A DNA stretch of 42,479 nucleotides from an uncultured Oscillospiraceae bacterium (GTDB taxonomy: Bacteria > Bacillota > Clostridia > Oscillospirales > Oscillospiraceae). Positions within the stretch are counted from its first letter, which is position 1, and each line of letters begins with the position of its first letter. Of the stretch, positions 24,810 to 39,132 are shown piece after piece. The notes under the pieces are model-generated. The model saw nothing but the letters and a program-made list of their open reading frames with translations, had not been told where the DNA came from and searched no databases. A program made the translations under genes and the position numbers. Location of the stretch: NCBI GenBank assembly GCA_947629245.1, contig CANRDC010000013.1:1-42479 (forward strand), written 5' to 3'.

Positions 24810-26516
24810 ATGTTGAAGTTTTCGGAGATGCCCTATGAGCGGCCGGATGTGGAGGCGCTCAAAGGGGAGATGACGGCCCTGACCGAGCGGCTGAAGAGCG
24901 CGGCGGACTATGAAACGGCCAAGGTGGTCTTTTTGGAATGGGAGAAGCTGGAAAAGCACGCGGACTCCCTGGGGACGCTGGTGAGCATCCGCCACAGCAT
25001 CGACACCAGGGACGAGTTCTATGACGCCGAGGAGACCTTCTGGAACAGCGCCTGGCCGGAGGTGCGGGAGTACATGCAAAACTGGCTGGACGCCATGCTG
25101 TCGAGCCCCTTCCGCCCGGACTTCGAGGCGGAGTTTGGCGGGCCCTATTTTCTCAACGCGGAGATCGCCCGCAAGGCCTTCTCTCCGGAGATCATCCCCG
25201 AGCTGCAAAAGGAGAACGACCTGACCCAGGCGTACGACAAGCTCATCGCCTCGGCCCAGATCCCCTTTGAGGGCGGGACCTATACCATCAGCCAGATGGG
25301 ACCCTTCCAGCACGATCCGGACGACGCTCGCCGACTGGCGGCCTGGAAGGCGGTGGGGCAGTGGTACAAGGACCATCAGCCTGACCTGGACCGGATCTAT
25401 GACGAGCTGACCCATCTGCGGGACGCCATGGGCAAAAAGCTGGGCTATGAGGGCTACACCACCCTGGGCTATTACCGCATGGGCCGCAACTGCTACGGCA
25501 GGGAGGACGTGGAGAAATTCCGCGCCGCGGTGGTGAAGTATCTGGTACCGGTGGCGGACGGGATCTACCGCAAGCAGGCGGCCCGGCTGGGCGTGGCGTA
25601 TCCGCTCAGCTACGCGGACGCGGCGCTCCAGTTCCGCTCCGGCAACCCCAAGCCCCAGGGCACGGCGGACGACGTGCTGGCGGCGGGCCGGAAGTTCTAT
25701 GACGAGCTGAGCCCAGAGACGGGGGAGTTTTTCCGGATGATGCTGGACGGGGAGCTGATGGACGTGCTTTCCAAGCCCGGCAAGGCTGGCGGCGGCTACT
25801 GCACCTCGATCCAGGACTACGGCGTGCCCTTCATCTTTGCCAACTTCAACGGCACCCAGGGGGACGTGGAGGTGGTGACCCACGAGGCGGGCCACGCCTT
25901 CGCCAACTGGGTGAACCGGGACCGGGTCCCCGCAGACTACGCCTGGCCCAGCATGGAGGCCTGCGAGGTCCACTCCATGAGCATGGAATTTATGGCCTGG
26001 CCCTGGGCGGAGGACTTCTTCGGCCCGGACGCGAAAAAGTTCCGCTACAGCCACCTGGCGGCGGCGCTGACCTTCATCCCCTACGGCACGCTGGTGGACC
26101 ACTTCCAGCACGAGGTCTACGCCCATCCGGACATGACCCCGGCTCAGCGGCACGAGTGCTGGAAAAAGCTCCAGGGTATCTACATGCCCTGGATGCGCCT
26201 GGATGGGGACATCCCGTTTTTCGCCGACGGCGAGGCCTGGCAGCGACAGAGCCATATCTATGGCAGCCCCTTCTATTATATCGACTACTGCCTGGCCCAG
26301 ACGGTGTCGCTGCAGTTCTGGGCCCTGGGGCAGAAGAGCAGGGAAGAGGCGTGGGAAAAGTACATGGCCTACACCCGCCAGGGCGGCAGCCGGGTCTTCA
26401 CGGAGCTATTGAGCAACGCCGGACTGGACAGCCCGTTCGACGAAAAGTGCCTGCGGGGCGTGTGCGACACGGCCAGAGCATGGCTGGACAATTACGACTT
26501 GAGCGGCGTCAACTGA
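24810..26516 (+). CDS. M3 family oligoendopeptidase (PepF-like)
   Basis: Zinc oligopeptidase of family M3, 568 residues, without signal peptide, so it should digest peptides in the cytosol. The active site is HEAGHAF (H358, E359, H362), and the third ligand is probably E386 in EACEVHSMSMEF. The barrel-side blocks FANFNGTQGDVEVVTHEAGH and FYYIDYCLAQTVSLQFW are typical of the M3B group. AAAGGAG at 24795-24801 fits the start. A terminator follows, and then comes the Opp oligopeptide importer operon in the same direction. This suggests PepF digests the peptides that Opp brings in. Confidence 0.95.
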   Translation: MLKFSEMPYERPDVEALKGEMTALTERLKSAADYETAKVVFLEWEKLEKHADSLGTLVSIRHSIDTRDEFYDAEETFWNSAWPEVREYMQNWLDAMLSSPFRPDFEAEFGGPYFLNAEIARKAFSPEIIPELQKENDLTQAYDKLIASAQIPFEGGTYTISQMGPFQHDPDDARRLAAWKAVGQWYKDHQPDLDRIYDELTHLRDAMGKKLGYEGYTTLGYYRMGRNCYGREDVEKFRAAVVKYLVPVADGIYRKQAARLGVAYPLSYADAALQFRSGNPKPQGTADDVLAAGRKFYDELSPETGEFFRMMLDGELMDVLSKPGKAGGGYCTSIQDYGVPFIFANFNGTQGDVEVVTHEAGHAFANWVNRDRVPADYAWPSMEACEVHSMSMEFMAWPWAEDFFGPDAKKFRYSHLAAALTFIPYGTLVDHFQHEVYAHPDMTPAQRHECWKKLQGIYMPWMRLDGDIPFFADGEAWQRQSHIYGSPFYYIDYCLAQTVSLQFWALGQKSREEAWEKYMAYTRQGGSRVFTELLSNAGLDSPFDEKCLRGVCDTARAWLDNYDLSGVN

Positions 26517-26813: not shown

Positions 26814-29006
26814 ATGAAGAACGCAAAGAAACTCTTGGCGCTCGTTGTGGCCGTGGTCATGTGCCTGGCCCTGGCGGCGCCCGCGTTTGCCGACGACGGC
26901 GACCAGCTCGCAGCGGACGTCTATACGCAGGCAAACTTTGACCAGGTTGCTCACGACGAGGAGAGCGGCCAGATCTATGACGAGGTATTCGGTGAGTTCA
27001 ACGAGTACTACGCGACGGCCAAGGATGAGATCGACCCCGATGTGCGCCTGGGCCTGATGGCCATTGCGGAGGCCAAGCTGTTAGAGACCGGCGCTGTGAC
27101 CCCGGCTATCCATAACGCTGGCAACTATGCTATCAGCAAAATCATCCCCCACACCCAGCCTGGCGTCATCTGGGGCATGGACGGTTCCTACCGCGGCTAT
27201 AAGAACCTGCTCATCACCGACCAGTGGCTGACGCCCGACGTCCGCACCGAGCTGACCACGAAGTGGGGCGAACTGCGCGGCACCGGCACCTGGCTGGACT
27301 GGGCTAAGCAGTGGGCGGCCGACAATGGCTACACCTTGCAGGATTCCTATACGCTGGCTTATACCAGCGACCCCCAGACTTGGGACGCGCTGGCCAGCTA
27401 TCAGGCCTCCGATGGCGAACCCATCTCCATGACCGTTGAGCCGTTGCTGCAGTATGACACCGAGAACGTCCAGCAGCCCGCTCTGGCCGAGAGCTATGAG
27501 GTCTCCGAAGACGGTCTGACCTACACTTTCCATCTGCGTGAAGGCGTGAAGTGGGTCACCTATCAGGGCACCGAGGTCGCCGAGGTCACCGCTGACGACT
27601 TCGTGGCCGGTCTGCAGCACTGCGCCGACGCGCAGATCAACCTGGCCGGTCTGCTCTTCGGCACTATCCAGAACCTGGAAGAGTATGCCACTGGCGAGAT
27701 CACTGATTTTGCCGAGGTGGGCGTGAAGGCTGTCGACGATTACACGGTCGAGTACACCCTGGCTCAGCCCGCCCCCTGGTTCAACACCCTTGTGGGCTAC
27801 AACATTCTCTATCCCATGAATCGCGGCTATTATGAATCCCAGGGAGGCAAGTTTGGCGAAGAGTTCGACGCTTCCGCTACCGACTATCTTTACGGCACGG
27901 ATTCTCAGCACATCGCTTACTGCGGTCCCTATCTGGTGAGCAACTACACCCGCCAGAACACCATCACCTACACTGCCAACCCCAGCTATTGGGATGCGGA
28001 CAATGTGCAGATCAAGACCGTCACCTTCCGTTATGATGACGGCACCGACCCCACCCGTACTTGGGACAACCTGATGGACGGCACCTATAATGCTGGCGCT
28101 GGCCTGGGCGCTGAGAACCTGGAGCAGGCCAAGAACACCGAGATCCCCGACGATCCTGATGGCGCCACTTACTTTGAGAAGTACGCCTACGTGAACAGCA
28201 ACGGCACCGGCTCCTGGATGAACTGGCTCAACCTGGACCGCTATGCCTATGCCAACTATAACGACGAGACTCAGGTCCGTTCTTCCCTGACCGTCGCCCA
28301 GGCTGACGCTGCCCGGACTGCGATGCAGAACCAGAACTTCCGTCTGGCCTTTGCGTTTGCGTTCGACCGCGCCTCCTGGAACGCCATCTCCCGCGGCGAA
28401 GATCTGAAGTATGCGCGTCTGATCAACTCCTTTGTTCCCGGCAACCTGACCAGCACCACCAAGGAGATCACTCTGGACATCAACGGCACGGAGACCACCT
28501 TTGCTGCTGGCACCTATTACGGTGAGATCCTCCAGGCGCAGGTCGACGCCGACGAATTCCCCGTACAGGTTTGGGATCCCGAAGGCGATAACGGCGCTGG
28601 TTCCAGCTTCGGCTTCGATGGCTGGTACAACCCCGAGGAGGCTGCCAAGTACATGGACGCGGCTGTTGAGGAACTGGCTGCCGAGGGCATCGAGATCAGC
28701 GCGGAGAACCCCATCTATCTCGACTATCCGGATCAGGATTACTCCACTTCCGGCGCCGCTATGGACCAGATCCTGAAGAGCTCCGTTGAGGAAGCCCTGG
28801 GCGGCAGGGTCGTCATCAACCTTGTCCCCTGCGGCAGCTCGGACAACCAGACTTATGCCACCTATTACGGCGGCACCGGATACACCGCCAACTATGATGT
28901 CTATCTGGCTGGTAACGGCTGGAGCCCGGACTATGGCGATCCCCAGACTTACCTCGATACCATGCTTGATGGCGGTTCCATGCTGGTCACTCTGGGCCTG
29001 TATTGA
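26814..29006 (+). CDS. oppA: Oligopeptide ABC importer, substrate-binding protein (OppA-like, permuted)
   Basis: A 730-residue SBP_bac_5-type binding protein of a peptide importer. A signal peptide ends at APAFA (residue 26) and lacks a lipobox. The core with family features runs from about 180 (LAYTSDPQTWDAL, PALAESYEVSEDGLTYTFHLREGVKW, VTADDFVAG, IAYCGPYLV) to the end. Residues about 45-140 resemble the C-terminal lobe of ordinary OppA (DPDVR...IAEAKLL, NYAISKI, GYKNLLI). The protein stops right after DYGDPQTYLDTML, where normal family members continue, which suggests circular permutation. The ATG at 26814 has AAGGAGGT at 26800-26807; an upstream in-frame start lies in the leader. It is the first gene of oppABCDF. 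Confidence 0.9.
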   Translation: MKNAKKLLALVVAVVMCLALAAPAFADDGDQLAADVYTQANFDQVAHDEESGQIYDEVFGEFNEYYATAKDEIDPDVRLGLMAIAEAKLLETGAVTPAIHNAGNYAISKIIPHTQPGVIWGMDGSYRGYKNLLITDQWLTPDVRTELTTKWGELRGTGTWLDWAKQWAADNGYTLQDSYTLAYTSDPQTWDALASYQASDGEPISMTVEPLLQYDTENVQQPALAESYEVSEDGLTYTFHLREGVKWVTYQGTEVAEVTADDFVAGLQHCADAQINLAGLLFGTIQNLEEYATGEITDFAEVGVKAVDDYTVEYTLAQPAPWFNTLVGYNILYPMNRGYYESQGGKFGEEFDASATDYLYGTDSQHIAYCGPYLVSNYTRQNTITYTANPSYWDADNVQIKTVTFRYDDGTDPTRTWDNLMDGTYNAGAGLGAENLEQAKNTEIPDDPDGATYFEKYAYVNSNGTGSWMNWLNLDRYAYANYNDETQVRSSLTVAQADAARTAMQNQNFRLAFAFAFDRASWNAISRGEDLKYARLINSFVPGNLTSTTKEITLDINGTETTFAAGTYYGEILQAQVDADEFPVQVWDPEGDNGAGSSFGFDGWYNPEEAAKYMDAAVEELAAEGIEISAENPIYLDYPDQDYSTSGAAMDQILKSSVEEALGGRVVINLVPCGSSDNQTYATYYGGTGYTANYDVYLAGNGWSPDYGDPQTYLDTMLDGGSMLVTLGLY

Positions 29007-29048
29007 TCCTGAGCAAGTTTCTCGGCAGACATAATAAACCGTCAAAAT

Positions 29049-29075
29049 GGGGGGCGGGGAATTTCCCCGTCCCCC
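29049..29075 (+). other. Stable hairpin between oppA and oppB
   Basis: A 12-bp stem (29049-29060 with 29064-29075, one G-T pair, outer part GGGGG/CCCCC) encloses an ATT loop. No T-run follows. Such hairpins behind binding-protein genes commonly protect the upstream mRNA and cause more binding protein than membrane subunits to be made. Confidence 0.65.
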
Positions 29076-29124
29076 TCATTCGATTCTTCTGCCTCGACTT
29101 GGATGAAGAGAGTGGGGATGTAGT

Positions 29125-30699
29125 ATGGCAAAATATGTTTTAAAGCGATTGCTCCACGGCGCGATCTCCATCATCGCTGTCGTGTTTATTGTTATGATTT
29201 TGGTCTACGGCCTGATGAATCGTGACTTGGTTTTTGCCAAGGATCCACTTTTGAGCCGGCAGATGAATAACAATCGTGTCATTTATATGTACCAGAAATG
29301 GGAGGAGTTTGGCTATTTGGACTATGTGCCCTTTGCCGACTACCTCAATGACCTCGCCAGACAAGGCGAGATCGACGAAGAGACCCGTGCCGACGCGGTC
29401 TCCATTGGCCGGACGGCGGAGGATGATTCTCCTCTCACGGCTGAGTATGTGAAGAAGTTCACGGAATATTATGAGTCCAAAGGCTATACGGTGTCGCGGA
29501 ATGATGCCATCGTATCAAGGGGCCGACTGGCCAATGGCGGCAAACAGCAGTTGTTTGCCTATCGGGACTACTCTGTTTTTAAGCGGCTGTGGAATTACTT
29601 CACCGGTCTGTTCTATGTGGACAACGTAAACTATGTGCCGGAGGAAAACGACATAGGGGAAAGAGGGCTGACTTTCACCTGGTATGACCCGGTATATGGC
29701 GGTGAGAAGTTCTCTCCTGCGCTGATAGGTAACGGCACCCGGTATAAATACCTGGTCTATTTTGACAACAAATTTCCGTATTTCCACCAAAACTTAGTAA
29801 CCATCCACCTGGGCCAGTCCTATTCTGTGACGCGCGGCGTGGATGTGTGGGATTCTATGACCCAAAGCCAAGGTTCTTGGGTGCAGTCTGAAATCACATA
29901 TCCCACCGGCTTGCAGGAGATGAGCGCAGACGATCTGCACACCGCCACTTATGTGGCTGGCTCTCTGGAAACCAGTGATTTGTATAAAGATCGCTTTACC
30001 GATGACTACACTTATACCAGAACGACGCAGAACAATATGTCCCGCCTGGGCTATTCGTTCCTGATCGGTATTATCGCGACGATTTTTGTTTATATCCTCG
30101 GTCTGCCTATCGGCGTACTGATGGCACGCGATAAGGGTGGTATTATCGACAAGGTGGGCACTGTCTATGTCATGTTCATTTCCGCTGTGCCCAGCTTGGC
30201 ATACATTTTTATGTTTAAGGGCATTGGCCGCAGCATGGGATTGCCATGGATGTTCGACATGGATAATCTCTCAAAGCTGATGTATGTGCTTCCCATCGTG
30301 TCCCTGGCGCTGCCCTCCGTGGCAAGCATGATGAAATGGATGCGCCGGTACATGATCGACCAGATGAACTCCGATTACGTGAAGTTCGCCCGGTCCACCG
30401 GTCTGAGCGAGACCAGCATCTTCTTCAAGCACGTGATGAAGGTCTCCGCCATCCCCATCATCCAGGGCATTCCCGGCTCGATACTGCTGGCAATGACCGG
30501 CGCGCTGATAACCGAGCGCGTGTACATGGTTCCCGGCGCAGGCGGTCTGCTCATCGACGCCATCAATGCCTATGATAACTCGGTCATCGTGGGCGTGACC
30601 CTGTTCTATGCGATATTGGCGGTGTTGAGTCTGATTCTGGGCGATGTTCTGATGGCAGTAGTTGACCCGAGAATTTCCTTCACGGAGAAAGCGAGGTGA
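29125..30699 (+). CDS. oppB: Oligopeptide ABC importer permease OppB with large external insert
   Basis: First membrane subunit of the Opp importer, 524 residues against about 310 usually. TM1 is at about 12-33 (LLHGAISIIAVVFIVMILVYGLM). A polar stretch of about 270 residues follows, before TM2 near 307 (YSFLIGIIATIFVYILGLPIGVLMA). The standard BPD_transp_1 domain follows with the EAA loop (SIFFKHVMKVSAIPIIQGIPGS...MVPGAGGLL). The insert lies outside the membrane by topology and may touch the binding protein. Codons in the first two thirds are AT-richer than in neighbouring genes. The stop overlaps the following coding region (GTGA). Confidence 0.93.
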   Translation: MAKYVLKRLLHGAISIIAVVFIVMILVYGLMNRDLVFAKDPLLSRQMNNNRVIYMYQKWEEFGYLDYVPFADYLNDLARQGEIDEETRADAVSIGRTAEDDSPLTAEYVKKFTEYYESKGYTVSRNDAIVSRGRLANGGKQQLFAYRDYSVFKRLWNYFTGLFYVDNVNYVPEENDIGERGLTFTWYDPVYGGEKFSPALIGNGTRYKYLVYFDNKFPYFHQNLVTIHLGQSYSVTRGVDVWDSMTQSQGSWVQSEITYPTGLQEMSADDLHTATYVAGSLETSDLYKDRFTDDYTYTRTTQNNMSRLGYSFLIGIIATIFVYILGLPIGVLMARDKGGIIDKVGTVYVMFISAVPSLAYIFMFKGIGRSMGLPWMFDMDNLSKLMYVLPIVSLALPSVASMMKWMRRYMIDQMNSDYVKFARSTGLSETSIFFKHVMKVSAIPIIQGIPGSILLAMTGALITERVYMVPGAGGLLIDAINAYDNSVIVGVTLFYAILAVLSLILGDVLMAVVDPRISFTEKAR

Positions 30700-30704
30700 C
30701 CGTC

Positions 30705-31688
30705 ATGGAGGATCTTAACAAGAAGTATAACATGTCGGACGAGGAACTGTTTTCCCGTGTCGGCAGCGACGAATTCGCCTCCGAGAAGATCACCGCGCCC
30801 CGCTATTCCTACTGGAAGAGCGTGTTCCGCGTGTTCTTCCGCAATAAGGTCAACATCATAGTTCTGATTTTGCTGGCGGTCGTGATCGTATTTGCCTATG
30901 TCTACCCGGCAGTGATCGGATACGACCCAGGCGTAGATCCTTATATCAACTTAAATGACGCTGCGGGCAAACACCTGACGCCTGGTGCGGCGTTTAAGCA
31001 TTTCGGCGTTGCGCTGAAGTGGATATTCGGCACCGGGGCCAATGGCAACTCTACCTTCGACGCCATCTGGAACGGCTCCCGTATCTCTATCAGCCTGGCG
31101 GTTATCTGCGCCGCTATCAATATGACCATCGGCACCCTGCTTGGCGCGGTTTGGGGCTTCTCCCGCAAGGTAGACATGATCATGAACGAGGTCTACAACG
31201 TCCTGGGCAATATTCCGTACACTTTGCTTATCTCCGTGATGGTCATGGTGTTCTCGCCCAGCTTTTGGACGCTGGTCTTTGCCATGACGATCATCGGCTG
31301 GCTTGGTATGGCCTATTACATAAGGACGCGGGTCATTATTATTCGTGATAATGAATATAACCTGGCATCGCGCTGCCTTGGCACCAGCATCTTCAAGATC
31401 GCCTCGAAGAACATCCTGCCCTTCATGACCTCCGTCATCGTGCTGGAGATCGCCGCGGCCATCCCGGGCTACATCTCTTATGAGGTGTTTCTGTCCTACA
31501 TTGGCCTGGGCCTGAGCGAGGCATCCCTGGGCCGGTTGATCTATGAGTCGCAGAACGCCATGGTCACCCCCGGCTGGGGCTGGGAGTTCTGGACGCCCGT
31601 GGCCGTCGCCTCCGTCATCACCGTGGTGCTGTACGTGACGGGCCAGAACCTGGGCGACGCGTCCGACCCCCGGACGCATATGGAGTAA
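30705..31688 (+). CDS. oppC: Oligopeptide ABC importer permease OppC
   Basis: Second membrane subunit, 327 residues. It has an N-terminal cytosolic helix (OppC_N type) and TM1 (VNIIVLILLAVVIVFAYVYPAV). A short external loop (about 60-100) leads to the permease domain with EAA loop (IFKIASKNILPFMTSVIVLEIAAAIPG) and the characteristic SYIGLGLSEASLGRLI. ATG 30705 is preferred to GTG 30696, since GAGGTG at 30693-30698 is then a proper ribosome site. It is translated right after oppB and followed by oppD after 12 bases. Confidence 0.94.
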   Translation: MEDLNKKYNMSDEELFSRVGSDEFASEKITAPRYSYWKSVFRVFFRNKVNIIVLILLAVVIVFAYVYPAVIGYDPGVDPYINLNDAAGKHLTPGAAFKHFGVALKWIFGTGANGNSTFDAIWNGSRISISLAVICAAINMTIGTLLGAVWGFSRKVDMIMNEVYNVLGNIPYTLLISVMVMVFSPSFWTLVFAMTIIGWLGMAYYIRTRVIIIRDNEYNLASRCLGTSIFKIASKNILPFMTSVIVLEIAAAIPGYISYEVFLSYIGLGLSEASLGRLIYESQNAMVTPGWGWEFWTPVAVASVITVVLYVTGQNLGDASDPRTHME

Positions 31689-31700
31689 GGGGGAAGGACT

Positions 31701-33452
31701 ATGGAAGAGAAGAGAAAAGTTCTGCTGTCCATCCAGGACCTGACAGTCAAGTTCCGGGTCCGCGGCCGTATCCTGACGGCCATCCGGGACGTGAGTCTGG
31801 ATATCTATGAGAACGAGTCCATCGCCATCGTGGGCGAGTCCGGCTCCGGCAAATCGGTGCTGACCAAGACCTTCGCCGGTATGACCGACTCCAACGGCTA
31901 CATCGACCAGGGCAAGCTGCTGTTCAACGACCCGGAGCTGGCGGAGACTTACGTGAATCTGACGGCGGGCGCCCGCAGGATGATCGAGTCCGCGCGGGTG
32001 AAGCTGAACAAGCTGAGCTGCTACGAGCTGGGCGTCGATACCTATAAGAAGATCACGGAGCTGGATAGCGAGAAAAAGCGCCGCAGCTCCCTCACCGACG
32101 AGGAAAGAGAGAGCATCGAAAAAGAGCTGCGGGACCTGAAATTCAAGCGCACCAACCTGTTCAACGAAAAGCAGACCTATGACCCCAAGACCGAGAAGGA
32201 CAAGATCCACGCCGCGGCTCAGAAGCTCAAGGAGTACGACGCGCAGATCAAGTCCCTGGAGGGGAAGGAGGCCGCCGAGGAGAAAAAACGCAAAGAGGAG
32301 GCCTCCCGCGACACGGCGTTCAACGAGCGCTATGCCAAGGAAATGGCCCAGCTGAAAGCCCAGTATGACAAGCAGATCGCTGGCCAGATCAGCGACGAGA
32401 CGAAAAAACGCAACGAGATCCTGGCAAAGGAGATCTATCTGTCCGTCGGCCGCTATGGGCTGCATGTGCGCATCCAGCTCATTCGGGCGCTGCTGAAAGC
32501 AATGAAAAAGGCGATGGTCATGGGCGTCGACCTGGACGACGAGGACCAGCGCAGCGCCGTGTTCGACACGGTGGTGTTCCGTGTGCGGTATCTGGACGAG
32601 ACGCCGGAGAAGCTGCACGGCACCTGCGTGCTGAACCTGGCCAACGTGAAGTATGACAAGGACTGGAACCAGGTCCGCGGCCGCCGTATCGCCACGGTGT
32701 TCCAGGACCCCATGACCAGTCTGAACCCCATCATCACAATCGGCAAGCAGATCACCTCCACCATCATCAAGCACCAGGGGTGCTCCGAGGTGGAGGCCCG
32801 GACCCGCGCCCTGGAGCTGATGCGCAAGGTCGGCATCCCCCACGCGGAGGCCCGCTTTGACGACTATCCCTTCCAGTACTCCGGCGGCATGCGCCAGCGC
32901 ATCGTCATCGCCATCGCGCTCTCCTGCCAGCCGAAGATCCTCATCTGCGATGAGCCCACTACGGCTCTGGACGTGACCATCCAGTCCCAGATCCTCAAGC
33001 TCATCAAGGACCTGCAGAAGGAATTTGGCTTCACCATCGTATTCATCACCCATGACCTGGGCGTGGTGGCCAACATCGCGGACCGGGTGGCGGTGCTGTA
33101 CGCCGGGCAGATCGTGGAGCTTGGCACGGTGGAGGAGGTCTTTTACGACCCCCGGCACCCGTACACCTGGGCGCTGCTGTCGAGCCTGCCCCAGTTGGCC
33201 GAGCGCAATACCACCCTGTACTCCATCACCGGCACGCCCCCGTCCCTGTATAACGCCATCGTGGGCGACGCGTTCGCGCCCCGCAACCCCTACTGCATGA
33301 AGATCGACACGCTTGAGGAGCCGCCTATGTTCCAGGTGAGCCCGACCCACTTTGCCAAGACATGGCTGCTGGACCCGCGGTCTCCCAAGGTGGATAAGCC
33401 TGAGGGCATCCAGGATATCCACACCAAGCTCATGAAGGCATTCAATATTTAA
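31701..33452 (+). CDS. oppD: Opp importer ATPase OppD with coiled-coil insertion
   Basis: ABC ATPase of the Opp importer, 583 residues against about 330 usually. Walker A is GESGSGKS (45-52), the Q-loop is [11 protein letters not shown] (Q335), the signature is YSGGMRQR and Walker B is [12 protein letters not shown]. The H-loop is ITHDLG. Walker A and the Q-loop are usually about 50-60 residues apart; here they are 283 apart. The extra 230 residues (about 78-320) are very rich in Lys, Glu and Arg with heptad-like patterns ([19 protein letters not shown]), so a long helical coiled coil is likely. The insert starts after the GKLLFND hairpin of the ABC beta subdomain. A C-terminal oligo/dipeptide domain is present. 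Confidence 0.93.
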
Positions 33453-33465
33453 GGGGGGCGGAAAC

Positions 33466-34779
33466 GTGTCTAGAGTAAAAGGAACCAAAGAAGGCCGCCG
33501 TTCCCACTTCCCGGAACACGGGCCTATCGCAGAAAACGGCAGAGAGATACTCCTGTCGTTGAAGGATGTGGACATCACCTTCGGCAAGGGCGACAACGCC
33601 GTCCGCGCCGTGCAGGACGCGTCCTTCGACATCTACAAGGGCGAGACGTTTTCCCTGGTGGGAGAGTCCGGCTCCGGCAAGACCACCATCGGCCGGGCCG
33701 TGATCCGGGTCAACCCCCTGGCCGGGGGCGAGATCGACTATAAGGGCGTGCGCATCTCCGGCAAGATCCCCCGTTCCCTGGACCGGGAGGTCATCCGCAA
33801 TGTGCAGATGGTGTTCCAGGACCCCGCCGCGTCTTTGAACGAGCGCGCCACGGTGGACTACATCATCTCCGAGGGTCTTTACAACTTCGGCCTGTTCGAG
33901 AACGAGGCGGACCGTGTCCGCAAGGTGGAGAACATGATCCACGAGGTGGGTCTGCTGCCCGAGCATCTGACCCGGTATCCCCATGAGTTCTCCGGCGGCC
34001 AGCGCCAGCGCATCGGCATCGCACGGGCCATGGTCATGGAGCCGGAGCTGGTGGTGGCCGACGAGCCCATCTCCGCCCTGGACGTGTCCATCCGCGCCCA
34101 GGTGCTGAACCTGATGAAGAAGTTCCAGCGGGAAAACGACGTCACCTATCTCTTCATCGCCCACGACCTTTCCGTGGTCCGGTTCATTTCCGACCGTATC
34201 GGCGTCATCTACAAGGGCCGGATCGTGGAGGTGGCGGACGCGGAGGAGCTGTTCGACTTCCCCCTGCATCCCTACACCCACTCGCTGATCTCCGCCATCC
34301 CCATTCCCGATCCTCAGCTGGAGAAGAACAAGGTCCAGTTCGTTTATGACCCGTCCGTTCACGATTACAGCGAGGATAAGCCGGAGTTCGTGTGCATCGG
34401 TCACGACCACTGGATCTACGGCAACAAGAAGGAGATCGAGGAGTATAAGGCCATCCGTGAGTCCGGCGTGCCCATCAAGCCCATCACCATCGCTGACCCC
34501 GAAACGGCCCAGGAGCAGCAGGCTTCGGCCATCGACGCGGCGGAGGCCGCGGCGCAGGCCCAGTTCCTCCAGGCGCCGGTGCACGATACCGGCAGCATCT
34601 GGTATACGCTGCTCAGCTTCCTGCTGCCCATCCCAGGCTTCATCGCCGGGTGGCTGTTCAAGCGGCACAAGCACTTCCGCAATTACAAGGCGTGCAAGAA
34701 GGGCGCCGTCATCGGCATCGTCACCCTTGCCGTGTTCGCGGCGATCTTTGCCCTGCTGCTGTGGGCTGCGGTGGCCTGA
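33466..34779 (+). CDS. oppF: Opp importer ATPase OppF with C-terminal membrane hairpin
   Basis: Partner ABC ATPase, 437 residues. Walker A is GESGSGKTT, the Q-loop is [12 protein letters not shown], the signature is FSGGQRQR and Walker B is [12 protein letters not shown]. After the usual C-terminal region an Ala/Gln-rich linker (EEYKAI...[13 protein letters not shown]) leads to two hydrophobic helices at about 378-398 ([21 protein letters not shown]) and 413-437 ([20 protein letters not shown]), joined by a basic loop. Soluble OppF normally has none. The start is GTG 33466 with a G-rich ribosome site (GGGGGG at about 33453-33458). The next gene begins on the base after its stop. Confidence 0.92.
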
Positions 34780-36027
34780 TTGGGACGCGGGGCGAGAAAG
34801 AAAAGCGAGCCATACGTGCCGCCGGTAAATAAGATCGAACTGTCTTCCGCCCATACTGGGCGGAAGATGGTCCTTATGATCGTTTTTCTGGCGATAGCGG
34901 TGGCCGCGTTCGTATATGGATTCATGCAGCTTCTGGATCCCGATGAGGCTGGGGGCTGGCAGGAGATCCAGGCGTCCTCCGGCGCGGAGCTCAACTGCGG
35001 CGGAGATTTTGTGCTGCTGTACGATCTGGGCGGCTCCGGCTCCAGCGTCTCGGCGGAGAAGAAAGGCCTGACCTCGGCCTATACCGGGGCGGCGGTGACG
35101 GCTTACCGGCTCTTCACCAATGACGGTGACTTTGAGGATGTGCACAACGTGCGGTACATCAACCGGCACCCCAACGAGGTGATCGACGTGGACCCGGCGC
35201 TGTATCACGCCCTGGAGCAGGTGCAGGCCGCCGGGGACCGGTCGTTGTATCTTGGGCCGGTTTACGAGATCTACAACGGCGTGTTTACCTGCGAGGACGA
35301 CGCTCAGACAGCGGACTTCGACCCGCTGCAAAACGGCTCGCTCCGGGCGTATTTCGCCGAGTGCGCCGCGTTCGGCGGCGACCCGGCCTCGGTGGATGTG
35401 GAGCTGCTGGGCGACGGAGAGATACGGCTCGCGGTATCGGAGGAATATCTCGCGTTTGCCCAGGAGGAGGAGATCGTAAGCTTCATCGACTTTGGCTGGA
35501 TGAAAAACGCCTTTATTGCCGACTATCTGGCGGATACGCTGGCGAACGCGGGCTATACCCGCGGCGCCCTGTCCAGCTGCGACGGCTTTGTGCGCAACCT
35601 GTGCCAGGGCGGGGAGACCTTCGCCTTCAATATCTTTGACCGGGGCGTCCGGGCGGGGGCCATGACGTATACCGGCCCCATGAGCATCGTGTATCTGAGA
35701 AGCTACCCCATGAACGAGCTGGATGCCGCGAACTACTATGAGATGTCCGACGGCGGGATCAGGTCGTACTATCTTGACCCGGCGGACGGCCTTTGCAAAA
35801 CCGCTCTGGACGACCTTATGGCCTACGCCTGTGACGGGAGCTGCGCTGGGACGGCGCTGGCGCTGGCCCCGCTGTATGTAGCGGATGGACTGGACGCCGA
35901 GGGGCTGTCCGCCCTGGCGGAGAGGGGCGTCTTTTCCGTGACCTGCGGGGACGGCGAGGTGCGATACAACGACCCGGACCTGACATTCGAGCCGGAGGAG
36001 GGCTACAGCGCAGTTTGCGATGAGTAG
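34780..36027 (+). CDS. Membrane-anchored ApbE-like protein, degenerate
   Basis: A 415-residue protein with a basic cytosolic start, one membrane helix at about 30-50 (MVLMIVFLAIAVAAFVYGFM) and a long external part. I do not recognise it with certainty. The external part follows the layout of ApbE (FAD:protein FMN transferase): a FTNDGDFEDVHNVRYINRHP...VDPALYHALEQV segment, an LGPVYEIYNG segment, then VSFIDFGWMKNAFIADYLADTLANAGYTRGALSSCDG in place of the ApbE IDLGGIAKGYAAD...NxGG block. Key glycines are lost, so it is probably not an active transferase. The start is TTG 34780, adjacent to the oppF stop. It ends the opp operon, so a role with the importer is inferred. Confidence 0.6.
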   Translation: MGRGARKKSEPYVPPVNKIELSSAHTGRKMVLMIVFLAIAVAAFVYGFMQLLDPDEAGGWQEIQASSGAELNCGGDFVLLYDLGGSGSSVSAEKKGLTSAYTGAAVTAYRLFTNDGDFEDVHNVRYINRHPNEVIDVDPALYHALEQVQAAGDRSLYLGPVYEIYNGVFTCEDDAQTADFDPLQNGSLRAYFAECAAFGGDPASVDVELLGDGEIRLAVSEEYLAFAQEEEIVSFIDFGWMKNAFIADYLADTLANAGYTRGALSSCDGFVRNLCQGGETFAFNIFDRGVRAGAMTYTGPMSIVYLRSYPMNELDAANYYEMSDGGIRSYYLDPADGLCKTALDDLMAYACDGSCAGTALALAPLYVADGLDAEGLSALAERGVFSVTCGDGEVRYNDPDLTFEPEEGYSAVCDE

Positions 36028-36208: not shown

Positions 36209-37312
36209 ATGAAAAAGTTATTTGCGCTTGTCCTGGTTTTGACGATGGTCTTTGCACTGACCATCCCGGCAATGGCTGAGGAGGAGACGGAGTTTGATCC
36301 GGAGCTGGTCGCCGCTGCTCAGGAAGAGGGAGAGCTTGTGGTCTACGGCTCCTGCGAGGAGCCCTACATGGCCGCCGCTGCGGAGAAGTTCCAGGAAATG
36401 TTCGGCATTAAGGTATCCGCCCAGCGTCTGTCCACCGGCGAGGTCCAGGCCAAGATCGAGGAGGAGAACGGCAATCCTTCCGCCGACGTTTGGTTCGGCG
36501 GTACTACCGACCCGTACAATGTCGTGGCTGCCGAGGGTCTGCTGGAAGCCTATGACGCCGCCAATGCCAGCCATCTGCTGGGCGACGCGTATAAGAACGC
36601 CGACGGCTACTGGTACGGCATCTACAAGGGCATCCTGGGCATCATGGTCAACAAGGACGAGTTGGAGCGCATGGAGCTGCCTGTCCCCGAGGACTGGGCG
36701 GACCTGACCGACCCCCAGTATGAGGGCCTGATCTGGATGTCCAACTACAACACCGCTGGCACCGCCAAGCTGGTCATCAACACCATGATCCAGAAGTACG
36801 GCCACGACGAGGGCATCCAGTATCTGGTAGACCTGGACAAGAATATCGAGGTCTATACCAAGTCCGGCTCCGGCCCGTCCAAGAACATCGGTACCGGTGA
36901 GTGCGTCATCGGCATTGGTTTCCTGCATGACGGCATTACCCAGATCATCGACAACGGCTATGAGAACGTGCAGCTCATCATCCCCTCCAGCGGCACTTCC
37001 TTTGAGATCGGCGCCACCGCTATCTTCAAGGGCGCTGCCCATCCCAACGCCGCCAAGCTGTGGATCGAGTATGCTCTGAGCCCCGAGTGCGTCAATCAGG
37101 CCAAGGATACCGGCTCCTACCAGTTCCTGGTCATCGACAACGCCGAGCAGCCCGAGCAGGCCGCTGAGTTTGGTCTGGACCCCGAGAACGTGATGGACTA
37201 TGACTTTGAGGATGCCACCGAAAACATCGGCGCCTATGTGGAGGAGGTCATGGAGGCCCTTGCCAACGCTGGCGCCGACACGGAGGACGCTGGCCGGTTC
37301 CAGACCGAGTGA
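36209..37312 (+). CDS. ABC importer substrate-binding protein, AfuA/FbpA-like class
   Basis: A 367-residue extracellular binding protein of the family-1 (AfuA/FbpA/IdiA-like) group. The signal peptide ends at IPAMA (residue 23) and has no Cys, so it is not a lipoprotein. Family features are GELVVYGSCEEPYMAAAAEKFQE, PSADVWFGGTTDPYNVVAAEGLLEAY, GYWYGIYKGILGIMVNKD, PEDWADLTDPQYEGLI and AHPNAAKLWIEYALSPE. The adjacent tyrosine pair that binds iron in FbpA is not seen, so the cargo is perhaps not ferric iron; sugar phosphates or phosphonates are known for relatives. The gene is separated from the permease by a strong terminator, which should give binding protein in excess. Confidence 0.88.
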   Translation: MKKLFALVLVLTMVFALTIPAMAEEETEFDPELVAAAQEEGELVVYGSCEEPYMAAAAEKFQEMFGIKVSAQRLSTGEVQAKIEEENGNPSADVWFGGTTDPYNVVAAEGLLEAYDAANASHLLGDAYKNADGYWYGIYKGILGIMVNKDELERMELPVPEDWADLTDPQYEGLIWMSNYNTAGTAKLVINTMIQKYGHDEGIQYLVDLDKNIEVYTKSGSGPSKNIGTGECVIGIGFLHDGITQIIDNGYENVQLIIPSSGTSFEIGATAIFKGAAHPNAAKLWIEYALSPECVNQAKDTGSYQFLVIDNAEQPEQAAEFGLDPENVMDYDFEDATENIGAYVEEVMEALANAGADTEDAGRFQTE

Positions 37313-37345
37313 GCTTTCTCAGAGGCAGAATGACGTAGACCGGCG

Positions 37346-37377
37346 ACGGGGGATGGCGTGCGCCATCCCCCGTTTTT
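37346..37377 (+). terminator. Strong terminator between binding-protein and permease genes
   Basis: ACGGGGGATGGC (37346-37357) pairs perfectly with GCCATCCCCCGT (37362-37373) around GTGC and runs into five Ts. No promoter is evident before the permease, so read-through probably sets subunit ratios. Confidence 0.9.
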
Positions 37378-37419
37378 CGTTCCATGGCGCATCCTTGAGA
37401 GGAGAGAGGAGGGATCCCT

Positions 37420-39132
37420 ATGGCAAGAAGCCAGAGCGCGGCGCTGGACCGGAAAAAGCTCATGGCCGACCCCGTGATGGTAGGCACCATCGTTGTCCTC
37501 ATCGCATTTTTGACATTGTTCATCCTGTACCCCCTGGCCATCCTGCTGGTGGACAGCGTTTACGGCGACGATGGCCTGACGATGGACATCTTCAAGCGTG
37601 TCATGGCCATGGCCAACTTCCGCAAGGCCATTACAAATACTCTGAAGGTGGGCTTTTTGGTGGGGGTGCTGTCGGCAGCGGTGGGCCTGCTGTTCGCCTA
37701 TGTGGAGGTCTATGTGAAGGTGGGCCGGGGCGTAGGCGGTCTGTTCAAGGTGGTGAGCATGCTGCCGGTGGTATCGCCGCCCTTCGTGCTGAGCCTTTCC
37801 ATGATCATGCTCTTCGGCAAGGCGGGGCTCATCACCCGGTTTTTGCTGCATATCTATGACAACAGCGTCTACGGTTTCTGGGGCATCGTCATCGTACAGA
37901 CCCTGACGTTTTTCCCGGTGTGCTATATGATGCTCAAGGGACTTCTCAAAAACATCGACCCCTCTCTGGAGGAGGCGGCCCGGGACATGGGCGCGGGACG
38001 GATGAAAGTGTTCACCAGCGTGACGCTGCCGCTGCTGTTACCGGGACTGGGCAATGCCTTTCTTGTGACGTTCATCGAGTCCATCGCGGACTTTGCCAAC
38101 CCCATGATCATTGGCGGCTCCTATGACACGCTGGCCACCACGATCTATCTGCAGATCACTGGCGCTTACGATAAACAGGGCGCGGCGGCGATGGCGGTAG
38201 TGCTGCTGACCATCACGCTTCTGATGTTCGCGGTGCAGAAGTACTACCTGGAGGCCAAGACCGCCGCCACTCTGACGGGCAAAGCTTCCCGTGGTCGGAT
38301 GCTCATCTCCGACAAGAGCGTCACCCGGCCGCTGACGGCGCTGTGCGGCCTGGCCGCGGCCTTTGTCATCATGATGTATCTGTGCGTGCCCATCGGCGCG
38401 CTGTTTCCCACCTGGGGATATAAGTTCACGCCGCTGACCTTCAAATGGTTCGGGCAGGTGTTCACCCGTTACAAGGGCTTCAAGGCGTTCACCGACTCTT
38501 TTGTGCTGAGTCTGATCTCCGCGCCTATCACGGCTCTTCTGAGCATGATCATCTCCTACCTGGTGGTCAAGCGCAAATTCAAGGCCAAGGGCTTCATCGA
38601 GGCTGTCTCCATGCTGGCTATGGCGGTGCCCGGCACGGTACTGGGCGTGGGATATATCCGGGGCTTCTCCGGCGGCATCTTCCACACGGGCCTGCTGCAG
38701 GGCATATATGGCAGCGCGGCGATATTGGTGATCGTGTTCGTGGTCCGTTCCCTGCCCACCGGCACCAGAAGCGGCATCTCCGCCCTGCGGCAGATCGACA
38801 AGTCCATCGAGGAATCGGCCTACGACATGGGCGCGGACAGCTTCAAGGTGTTCATGACCGTGACGCTGCCCCTCATCAAAGATTCCTTCCTCAGCGGCCT
38901 CGTGACCGCCTTCGTCCGGAGCATCACCGCCATCTCCGCCATCATCCTGCTGGTGACGCCGCAGTTTCTGCTCATCACCGTGCAGATCAACGAGTTCGCG
39001 GAGAAGGGATCCTATTCCATCGCCTGCGCCTTCGCCACCATCCTGATCCTCATCACCTACGGCGCGGTGCTTCTGATGAATCTGTTCATCCGCTTCTTCG
39101 GCACCAGCAGAAAGATAAAGGAGGAAATGTGA
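37420..39132 (+). CDS. ABC importer permease, fused double domain (FbpB/AfuB-like)
   Basis: A 570-residue polytopic protein with two BPD_transp_1 domains in one chain, as in FbpB-type permeases. The EAA loops are EEAARDMGAGRMKVFTSVTLP in the first half and EESAYDMGADSFKVFMTVTLP in the second. About 12 membrane helices are visible, starting with VGTIVVLIAFLTLFILYPLAILLV. AGGAGGG in the ribosome site region before ATG 37420 is strong. The ATPase gene follows after one base, so the two are coupled. It forms the importer with the genes on either side. Confidence 0.94.
   Translation: MARSQSAALDRKKLMADPVMVGTIVVLIAFLTLFILYPLAILLVDSVYGDDGLTMDIFKRVMAMANFRKAITNTLKVGFLVGVLSAAVGLLFAYVEVYVKVGRGVGGLFKVVSMLPVVSPPFVLSLSMIMLFGKAGLITRFLLHIYDNSVYGFWGIVIVQTLTFFPVCYMMLKGLLKNIDPSLEEAARDMGAGRMKVFTSVTLPLLLPGLGNAFLVTFIESIADFANPMIIGGSYDTLATTIYLQITGAYDKQGAAAMAVVLLTITLLMFAVQKYYLEAKTAATLTGKASRGRMLISDKSVTRPLTALCGLAAAFVIMMYLCVPIGALFPTWGYKFTPLTFKWFGQVFTRYKGFKAFTDSFVLSLISAPITALLSMIISYLVVKRKFKAKGFIEAVSMLAMAVPGTVLGVGYIRGFSGGIFHTGLLQGIYGSAAILVIVFVVRSLPTGTRSGISALRQIDKSIEESAYDMGADSFKVFMTVTLPLIKDSFLSGLVTAFVRSITAISAIILLVTPQFLLITVQINEFAEKGSYSIACAFATILILITYGAVLLMNLFIRFFGTSRKIKEEM

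Follow-up and report, generated by a model that had tools for sequence, protein, structure and literature searches.

The closest described parallel to the transporter considered here is the Ami system of Streptococcus pneumoniae (AmiACDEF together with the Ali proteins), in which the permease AmiC carries an external domain, ECD1/ECD2, that PMC11192437 describes as covering residues 31-278 in two parts, one of which, in predicted complexes, sits wedged between the two binding-protein lobes. The same source reports peptides co-purifying with AliB and AmiA. The locus compared with it here lies at positions 26814-36027 of a 42,479-nucleotide stretch (hereafter the window; contig CANRDC010000013.1, positions 1 to 42,479) from an uncultured Oscillospiraceae bacterium, whose genome (GCA_947629245.1) is a 3.08 Mb draft in 146 contigs. 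Its six genes encode, in order, a substrate-binding protein (SBP), OppB, OppC, OppD, OppF and ApbL, the name used here for the ApbE-like protein. Shared with Ami are the SBP family, the AmiC-type domain in OppB, the gene order, and the complement of two permeases and two ATPases, each ATPase having PF00005 and a C-terminal oligo_HPY domain (PF08352). The locus probably encodes an oligopeptide importer of the Ami type. Its SBP is circularly permuted, an ApbE-fold protein, non-catalytic and optional, would serve as accessory, and the remodelling apparently took place a single time, in an ancestor of certain gut Clostridia. An initial annotation had named the locus the best candidate in the window for an undescribed system; this is not supported as stated, as the scaffold is known and the locus is a variant of it, derived from the described Ami system with its AmiC ECD1/ECD2 domain (PMC11192437), and no new kind of system. 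Most of the parts named in that annotation are nonetheless borne out, namely a permuted binding protein, about 270 external residues in OppB, an OppF ending in two membrane helices, an anchored, degenerate ApbE-like protein encoded last, and a near-normal OppC.

Relatives were collected at several ranges. A search of 60 genomes covered that of the window and 59 relatives, with 35/60 belonging to its genus. For a wider view, the OppB domain was scanned for with two OppB patterns in one genome per species (84,980), which gave 374 matches, of which 284 were confirmed; the best 80 of these 284 loci, ranked by similarity to the query, are those to which all counts "of the 80" refer, and close likeness among several of them (e.g. 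L140, L143 and L146) means that such counts are not independent events. The best 80 are mostly metagenome-assembled genomes labelled Lachnospiraceae or Oscillospiraceae, with a few odd labels, and the isolates among them are labelled Roseburia hominis An869, Acutalibacter sp. 1XD8-33 and Lachnospiraceae bacterium A4. Four of the 80 loci are without a complete SBP.

On alignment, the SBP reads as an AmiA/Ali relative whose original C-terminal segment is now N-terminal. Its nearest matches in the PDB are AmiA, AliB, AliC and AliD (8a42, 8qlj, 8qlc and 8qlh; E 9.7e-72 to 1.7e-65), and in three PDB alignments, with AmiA, AliB and AliD, residues 177-729 align to positions ~1-500 while residues 66-153 align to the C-terminal ~522-619. 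Profile comparison with the canonical AmiA-type SBP of a Streptococcus-like operon places residues 46-175 at the C-terminus (548-645, E=2e-9) and the rest of the protein at residues 38-525; with pooled canonical SBPs, residues 46-175 reach 1.3e-12, and with a more distant canonical SBP from the window's own genome (C40), the short segment is not significant (E 0.007). The predicted model of the whole SBP (predicted local distance difference test score, pLDDT, 92.5; predicted template-modelling score 0.89) likewise has Ali/Ami proteins as its top PDB matches, with a coverage of ~565 columns that reflects the restriction of Foldseek to alignments in sequence order. The permuted order was found in 12/12 SBPs checked by alignment and in all 79 complete SBPs of the 80 loci (76 loci, three of them with two copies). 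The window genome has seven other SBP_bac_5 matches, two of which were tested for order, one (C17) being clearly and the other (C40) less clearly canonical. The initial annotation's further statement, that the binding protein is not a lipoprotein, is correct for the window, where the leader ends in ALAAPAFA/DD and no lipobox is present, but fails as a trait of the system, since a regular expression finds a lipobox in 64/79 relatives (6/12 in the smaller set). Eight of the 15 SBPs without one begin SRRDFLKG, a start that resembles a twin-arginine translocation signal. Among the loci examined, then, the SBP anchor is labile and the permutation fixed. In L140, L143 and L146, a tandem pair of permuted SBPs stands 5' of OppB, with twin-arginine-like leaders replacing the lipobox; in L148, the SBP gene is in several pieces, and OppB through ApbL are complete.

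In OppB, the first hydrophobic segment lies near residue 4 and the next near residue 306, which leaves ~274 external residues between them. This domain matches OppB (~499 aa) from the Streptococcus-like Ami operon in genome G350 (E=2e-36), and a second such protein, from G684, is 36.5 % identical to the window OppB over 526 columns. By these two matches, and by the published description of S. pneumoniae AmiC, OppB is read as carrying an AmiC-type external domain; a profile search of the PDB with the domain gave nothing below E 0.05. A conserved stretch, DDLH[ST]AT, occurs within it, and its frequency among the 80 loci is biased because it formed one of the two scan patterns. The basic importer architecture is also common to DppABCDF of Escherichia coli, where a scoop motif of DppB follows the first transmembrane helix at the point at which the OppB domain sits, with ~30 residues as against ~270 (PMC12136057); neither a permuted SBP nor an extra gene is described for DppABCDF in the available portion of that source.

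OppC is ordinary, and the two ATPases are each extended. In OppD, the Walker A to Q-loop spacing is 280 residues in 63/73 relatives (208-306 in the others) as against 47 in three ordinary OppD proteins, which gives an insert of ~233 aa; three of the 76 complete OppD proteins were dropped from this comparison for want of one regular-expression motif, and the insert is long in 73/73 of the measurable proteins of the 80 loci. Shorter forms occur in L100, L106, L109, L122 and L150 (spacing 208 or 218), and the longest, 306, in L108 and L111. The insert is rich in charge (39 % K/R/E/D), and a PDB profile search with it gave nothing below E 0.05. When the extra pieces were compared with Pfam and NCBIfam, only the OppD insert had a meaningful match. 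In 20/23 members it aligns to the region of the Mycoplasma OppD model that holds the insert there (best E 6.3e-12), as against one or two members for other families. The Mycoplasma Opp system (NCBIfam MMSYN1_0165 to 0169) thus has an OppD model with an insert at the same place, and the two inserts, compared here through the family model, may be homologous or convergent. The window OppC is close to the Mycoplasma OppC model (318.9 bits); all five window proteins fall below the curated cut-offs of that system, the window OppD with 719.6 bits against a cut-off of 740, which the OppD of genome G201 passes with 756. Moreover, the Mycoplasma OppA model is canonical, with its AmiA-like N-terminus at 38-133 and C-terminus at 785-886 of 896, and the Mycoplasma OppF model is longer (649 positions) and is matched by the window OppF in three stretches. 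In the window OppF, hydrophobic segments at 380 and 409 form the C-terminal tail, and two such segments end 70/70 complete OppF proteins of the 80 loci. A four-Cys 4Fe-4S site is described for E. coli DppD/DppF (PMC12136057); a similar site seems, by eye, to be absent from OppD, where residues 500-583 (33198-33449) contain a single Cys.

The sixth protein, ApbL, has a single hydrophobic segment near residue 26 in the window, and an N-terminal membrane helix in 68/68 sequences. Its AlphaFold2 model (mean pLDDT 93.3) places it among the ApbE-type proteins, as all 37 PDB matches obtained with Foldseek at E <= 0.001 are ApbE/Ftp/FmnB proteins (best E 3.9e-12), an H257G mutant structure among them. 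In sequence, the likeness is marginal: Pfam ApbE has no match to the window ApbL at E <= 10 and matches 3/67 ApbL at E <= 0.1 (best E 0.002). We take the ApbE flavin transferases to depend on a catalytic His and on a metal-binding Asp and Thr. With positions mapped through an alignment of weak profile score, a His at the catalytic position is found in 0/67 ApbL, and by the same mapping the metal Asp position is E in 49 and D in 7 of 67 and Gly in the window, the Thr position being variable; an Asn in the N-terminal motif is retained by 63/67. Since the ApbE fold is present, the catalytic His gone and the metal site altered, ApbL is most likely not a flavin transferase. Elsewhere, the window genome encodes an ordinary ApbE as well as an FMN_bind protein. 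The gap between OppF and ApbL is 0-2 bp in 39/68 loci, the longest reading overlaps OppF in seven, and in eight (L108, L111, L133, L140, L142, L143, L146 and L148) ApbL lies 235-918 bp 3' of OppF.

The package recurs widely. Among the 60 genomes, 14 have ApbL and 15 have the OppD insert, none of them outside the genus, and in the discrepant genome (G007, with insert and without ApbL) the sequence ends inside OppF. The same gene order is seen in thirteen further same-genus loci, which were chosen by ApbL and some of which are cut by contig ends. ApbL lies 3' of opp in 68/80 loci, and as the other 12 are cut at or inside the operon, this amounts to 68/68 uncut loci. In class-wide samples, the OppB domain is found in 6/391 genomes (the window's, G201, G620, G718, G465 and G684, the contig of G465 being cut inside OppB), and a match across the whole permuted junction (E <= 1e-20) in 5/291 (the window's, G201, G620, G718 and G465); these five are the same five that carry the variant, non-Ami form of the OppB domain in the 391-genome sample. 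The 15 other matches to the junction query cover its ordinary half only and start at 99-108, except that of G704 (72-200). Full-length insert-type OppD (E <= 1e-110) is confined to the window's genome and G201 among 398 genomes of the phylum, and ApbL to 3/391 genomes of the class, namely the window's, G718 (in the operon) and, as a weak partial match, G666. A direct search for ApbL in G201, G620, G465, G684 and G350 gave no match (0/5), with a query that gave matches in the 391-genome search. Permuted SBP, OppD insert and OppF tail are always together where all three are visible, the tail alone not having been searched for. Such conservation across many species argues against chance or misassembly. 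Among the open-licence PubMed Central papers listed by the literature searches, examined by title, abstract and term counts, none was found to describe a permuted SBP of this kind, an OppF tail or an ApbE-opp link.

The two Ami-type operons clarify the ancestry. In G684 and G350, the OppB proteins (495-499 aa) have the external domain, and in these operons the SBP is in canonical order and the OppD insert and OppF tail are both missing; that of G350, where ApbL was likewise not found, appears by size and order to be a Streptococcus-like ami operon. In a FastTree tree of 84 operons and 1247 columns, the 79 variant operons form one clade (support 0.977) beside G684 and G350. On this placement, the external domain is shared with Ami, and permutation, insert and tail apparently arose on the stem of the variant clade, no intermediate having been seen. 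G201 and G620 nest inside the ApbL carriers (0.92 and 0.96 at the deeper nodes, and only 0.39 for the placement by L137). For these two genomes, the nesting makes loss of ApbL likelier than its late gain as the last of the parts; G465 is not in the tree. A natural permutation kept across many species in the SBP of an ATP-binding cassette importer would show that the tethered end is movable, which bears on how such proteins dock; the operons also tie an ApbE fold without its chemistry to a transporter. Recurrence among gut Lachnospiraceae and Oscillospiraceae makes the set a potentially important route for peptides in those bacteria.

An Ami-like working mode is well supported by homology, and the predicted substrate is oligopeptides. 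The permuted SBP would still bind these and, gripped by the OppB domain as modelled for AmiC, pass them on to OppB/OppC. Permutation would take the anchored SBP end away from lobe 1 and place it close to the hinge or lobe 2, so that the tethering to the membrane would change and the pocket would not. ApbL may serve as a non-chemical docking or stabilising protein on the outside, useful yet dispensable, the OppD insert and OppF tail may act on the two ATPases at the membrane, either stabilising or regulating the pair, and peptidases, for instance the PepF encoded just upstream, would then cut the imported peptides. Partial correlation of distances was calculated for 57/67 operons after removal of 10 near-duplicates, a crude measure that is weak here since all parts share one operon; the pairs that stood out were SBP core and OppB domain (+0.49), the two SBP pieces (+0.42) and OppB core and OppC (+0.66). 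A more ambitious version of the scheme, put forward only tentatively, and less likely than not, is a six-component importer of gut Clostridia in which permutation shifts the SBP tether to the other lobe and a catalytically dead ApbE-fold subunit on the outside keeps the SBP docked to the OppB domain, so that a lipid anchor can be dispensed with.

Several points weigh against a remodelled importer with ApbL as its accessory, or against the coordinated elaboration that the initial annotation had seen in the locus. The lobe position of the new SBP ends is one that we assume from OppA anatomy. ApbL has no clear partner, its highest distance correlation being +0.20. It is present in two and absent from three of the five class genomes with a permuted SBP, being gone from G201, G620 and the draft G465, so that the linkage of ApbE-like gene and opp holds for every uncut locus of the best 80 and fails in these three genomes; ApbL is thus not indispensable, and it is best described as a common yet optional companion, 68/68 reflecting close relatives of the window. 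Independent occurrence of the extensions, which that annotation had named as refuting, finds some support, in that the OppB domain occurs without the other parts in two operons (G684 and the Streptococcus-like G350) and a similar OppD insert occurs in the model for Mycoplasma, whose OppA model is in ordinary order. Of the predicted coiled-coil insert of about 230 residues, the insert stands and the coiled coil is not established, a simple test for heptad periodicity having given no signal. Among the 80 loci, only eight of the 56 that are informative have an adjacent M3 oligopeptidase, which outside the genus is thus a minority arrangement. What survives of coordination is a recurring package, in which permuted SBP, insert and tail keep together, ApbL is optional and the OppB domain is separable.

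It is unlikely that the locus is an ordinary Ami/Opp importer with lineage baggage. On that reading, the permutation, the insert and the tail would be neutral changes, and ApbL would be a separate protein encoded in the same operon and nothing more. The scaffold is indeed already known, and circular permutation usually preserves fold and function; ApbL lacks a correlated partner, and the operon is otherwise intact in G201 and G620, two of the three genomes that lack it. Yet the package holds across many species, ApbL is present in all the uncut loci of the best 80 and mostly abuts OppF, though it is up to 918 bp away elsewhere, and the insert is near constant in length (spacing 280 in 63/73). 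Furthermore, wherever the permuted junction was seen in the class sample, the variant OppB domain was present too, and no full-length insert-type OppD was found outside such an operon in the 398 phylum genomes, with the tail alone not searched for. A cargo other than nutrient peptides, such as oligosaccharides, wall peptides or signals, is quite improbable: importers annotated as Opp can carry other cargo, for example inulin in Lactobacillus delbrueckii (PMC8346543), but the nearest SBPs are the peptide binders AmiA/Ali, and an M3 oligopeptidase adjoins the operon in the window. That ApbL retains flavin or nucleotide binding, senses redox or flavinylates the OppB domain or the SBP is very improbable, for while the ApbE fold, the motif Asn, the acidic residue at the metal position (E or D, by the counts above) and the DDLH[ST]AT stretch, which we take to resemble flavinylation motifs loosely, would fit, the His is missing in 67/67, the window has Gly at the metal position, the frequency of the stretch is biased by the scan pattern, and DDLHSAT is retained in the G620 operon, which is without ApbL.

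Table 1. Features of the permuted Ami-type operon and its surroundings (positions in the window)
Feature	Position	Strand	Basis or remark
SBP, circularly permuted AmiA/OppA type, 730 aa	26814..29006	+	Sec-type leader, without lipobox
SBP residues 46-170, C-terminal segment in canonical AmiA/OppA	26949..27323	+	Alignment, profile comparison
SBP residues 177-730, N-terminal and middle parts of the canonical protein, ending just past the DPxTYLD segment	27342..29003	+	
12-bp GC-rich hairpin between SBP and OppB	29049..29075	+	Folding of a 104-nt stretch
OppB/AmiC-type permease, 524 aa	29125..30699	+	
AmiC-type external domain, OppB residues 31-304	29215..30036	+	
OppC permease, 330 aa, ordinary	30696..31688	+	
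OppD/AmiE ATPase, 583 aa	31701..33452	+	PF00005, PF08352
Insert between Walker A and Q-loop, OppD residues 85-318, rich in charge and probably helical	31953..32654	+	
OppF/AmiF ATPase, 437 aa	33466..34779	+	PF00005, PF08352
OppF residues 373-437, membrane tail of two hydrophobic helices	34582..34776	+	
ApbL, 415 aa, TTG start; ApbE fold, membrane anchor, no catalytic His	34780..36027	+	
PepF-like M3 oligopeptidase, same-strand upstream neighbour	24810..26516	+	Substrate hint, outside the complex

All genes from SBP to ApbL are on the + strand and were read with translation table 11; a reading with genetic-code table 4 was dropped, all of them being open under table 11. The 104-nt stretch between SBP and OppB folds with -39.3 kcal/mol (z -3.48), and 0/200 shuffles were equally stable. 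Expression of the SBP above the permease is common in such operons, and the GC-rich hairpin in this stretch may raise the one over the other, i.e. make expression unequal. An Rfam scan of the window gave nothing at gathering scores, hence no T-box or riboswitch of the listed families. The M3 oligopeptidase is found upstream in the window, in 7/9 same-genus loci with upstream sequence, and in G201 and G620. Downstream of ApbL lie the genes of a separate SBP_bac_6 transporter (36209-39132), which are also present in 8/13 same-genus loci. Finally, contig 17 of the same genome (L001) carries a second opp operon in which SBP, OppB, OppD and OppF are ordinary, its OppF being 62 % identical to that of the window.

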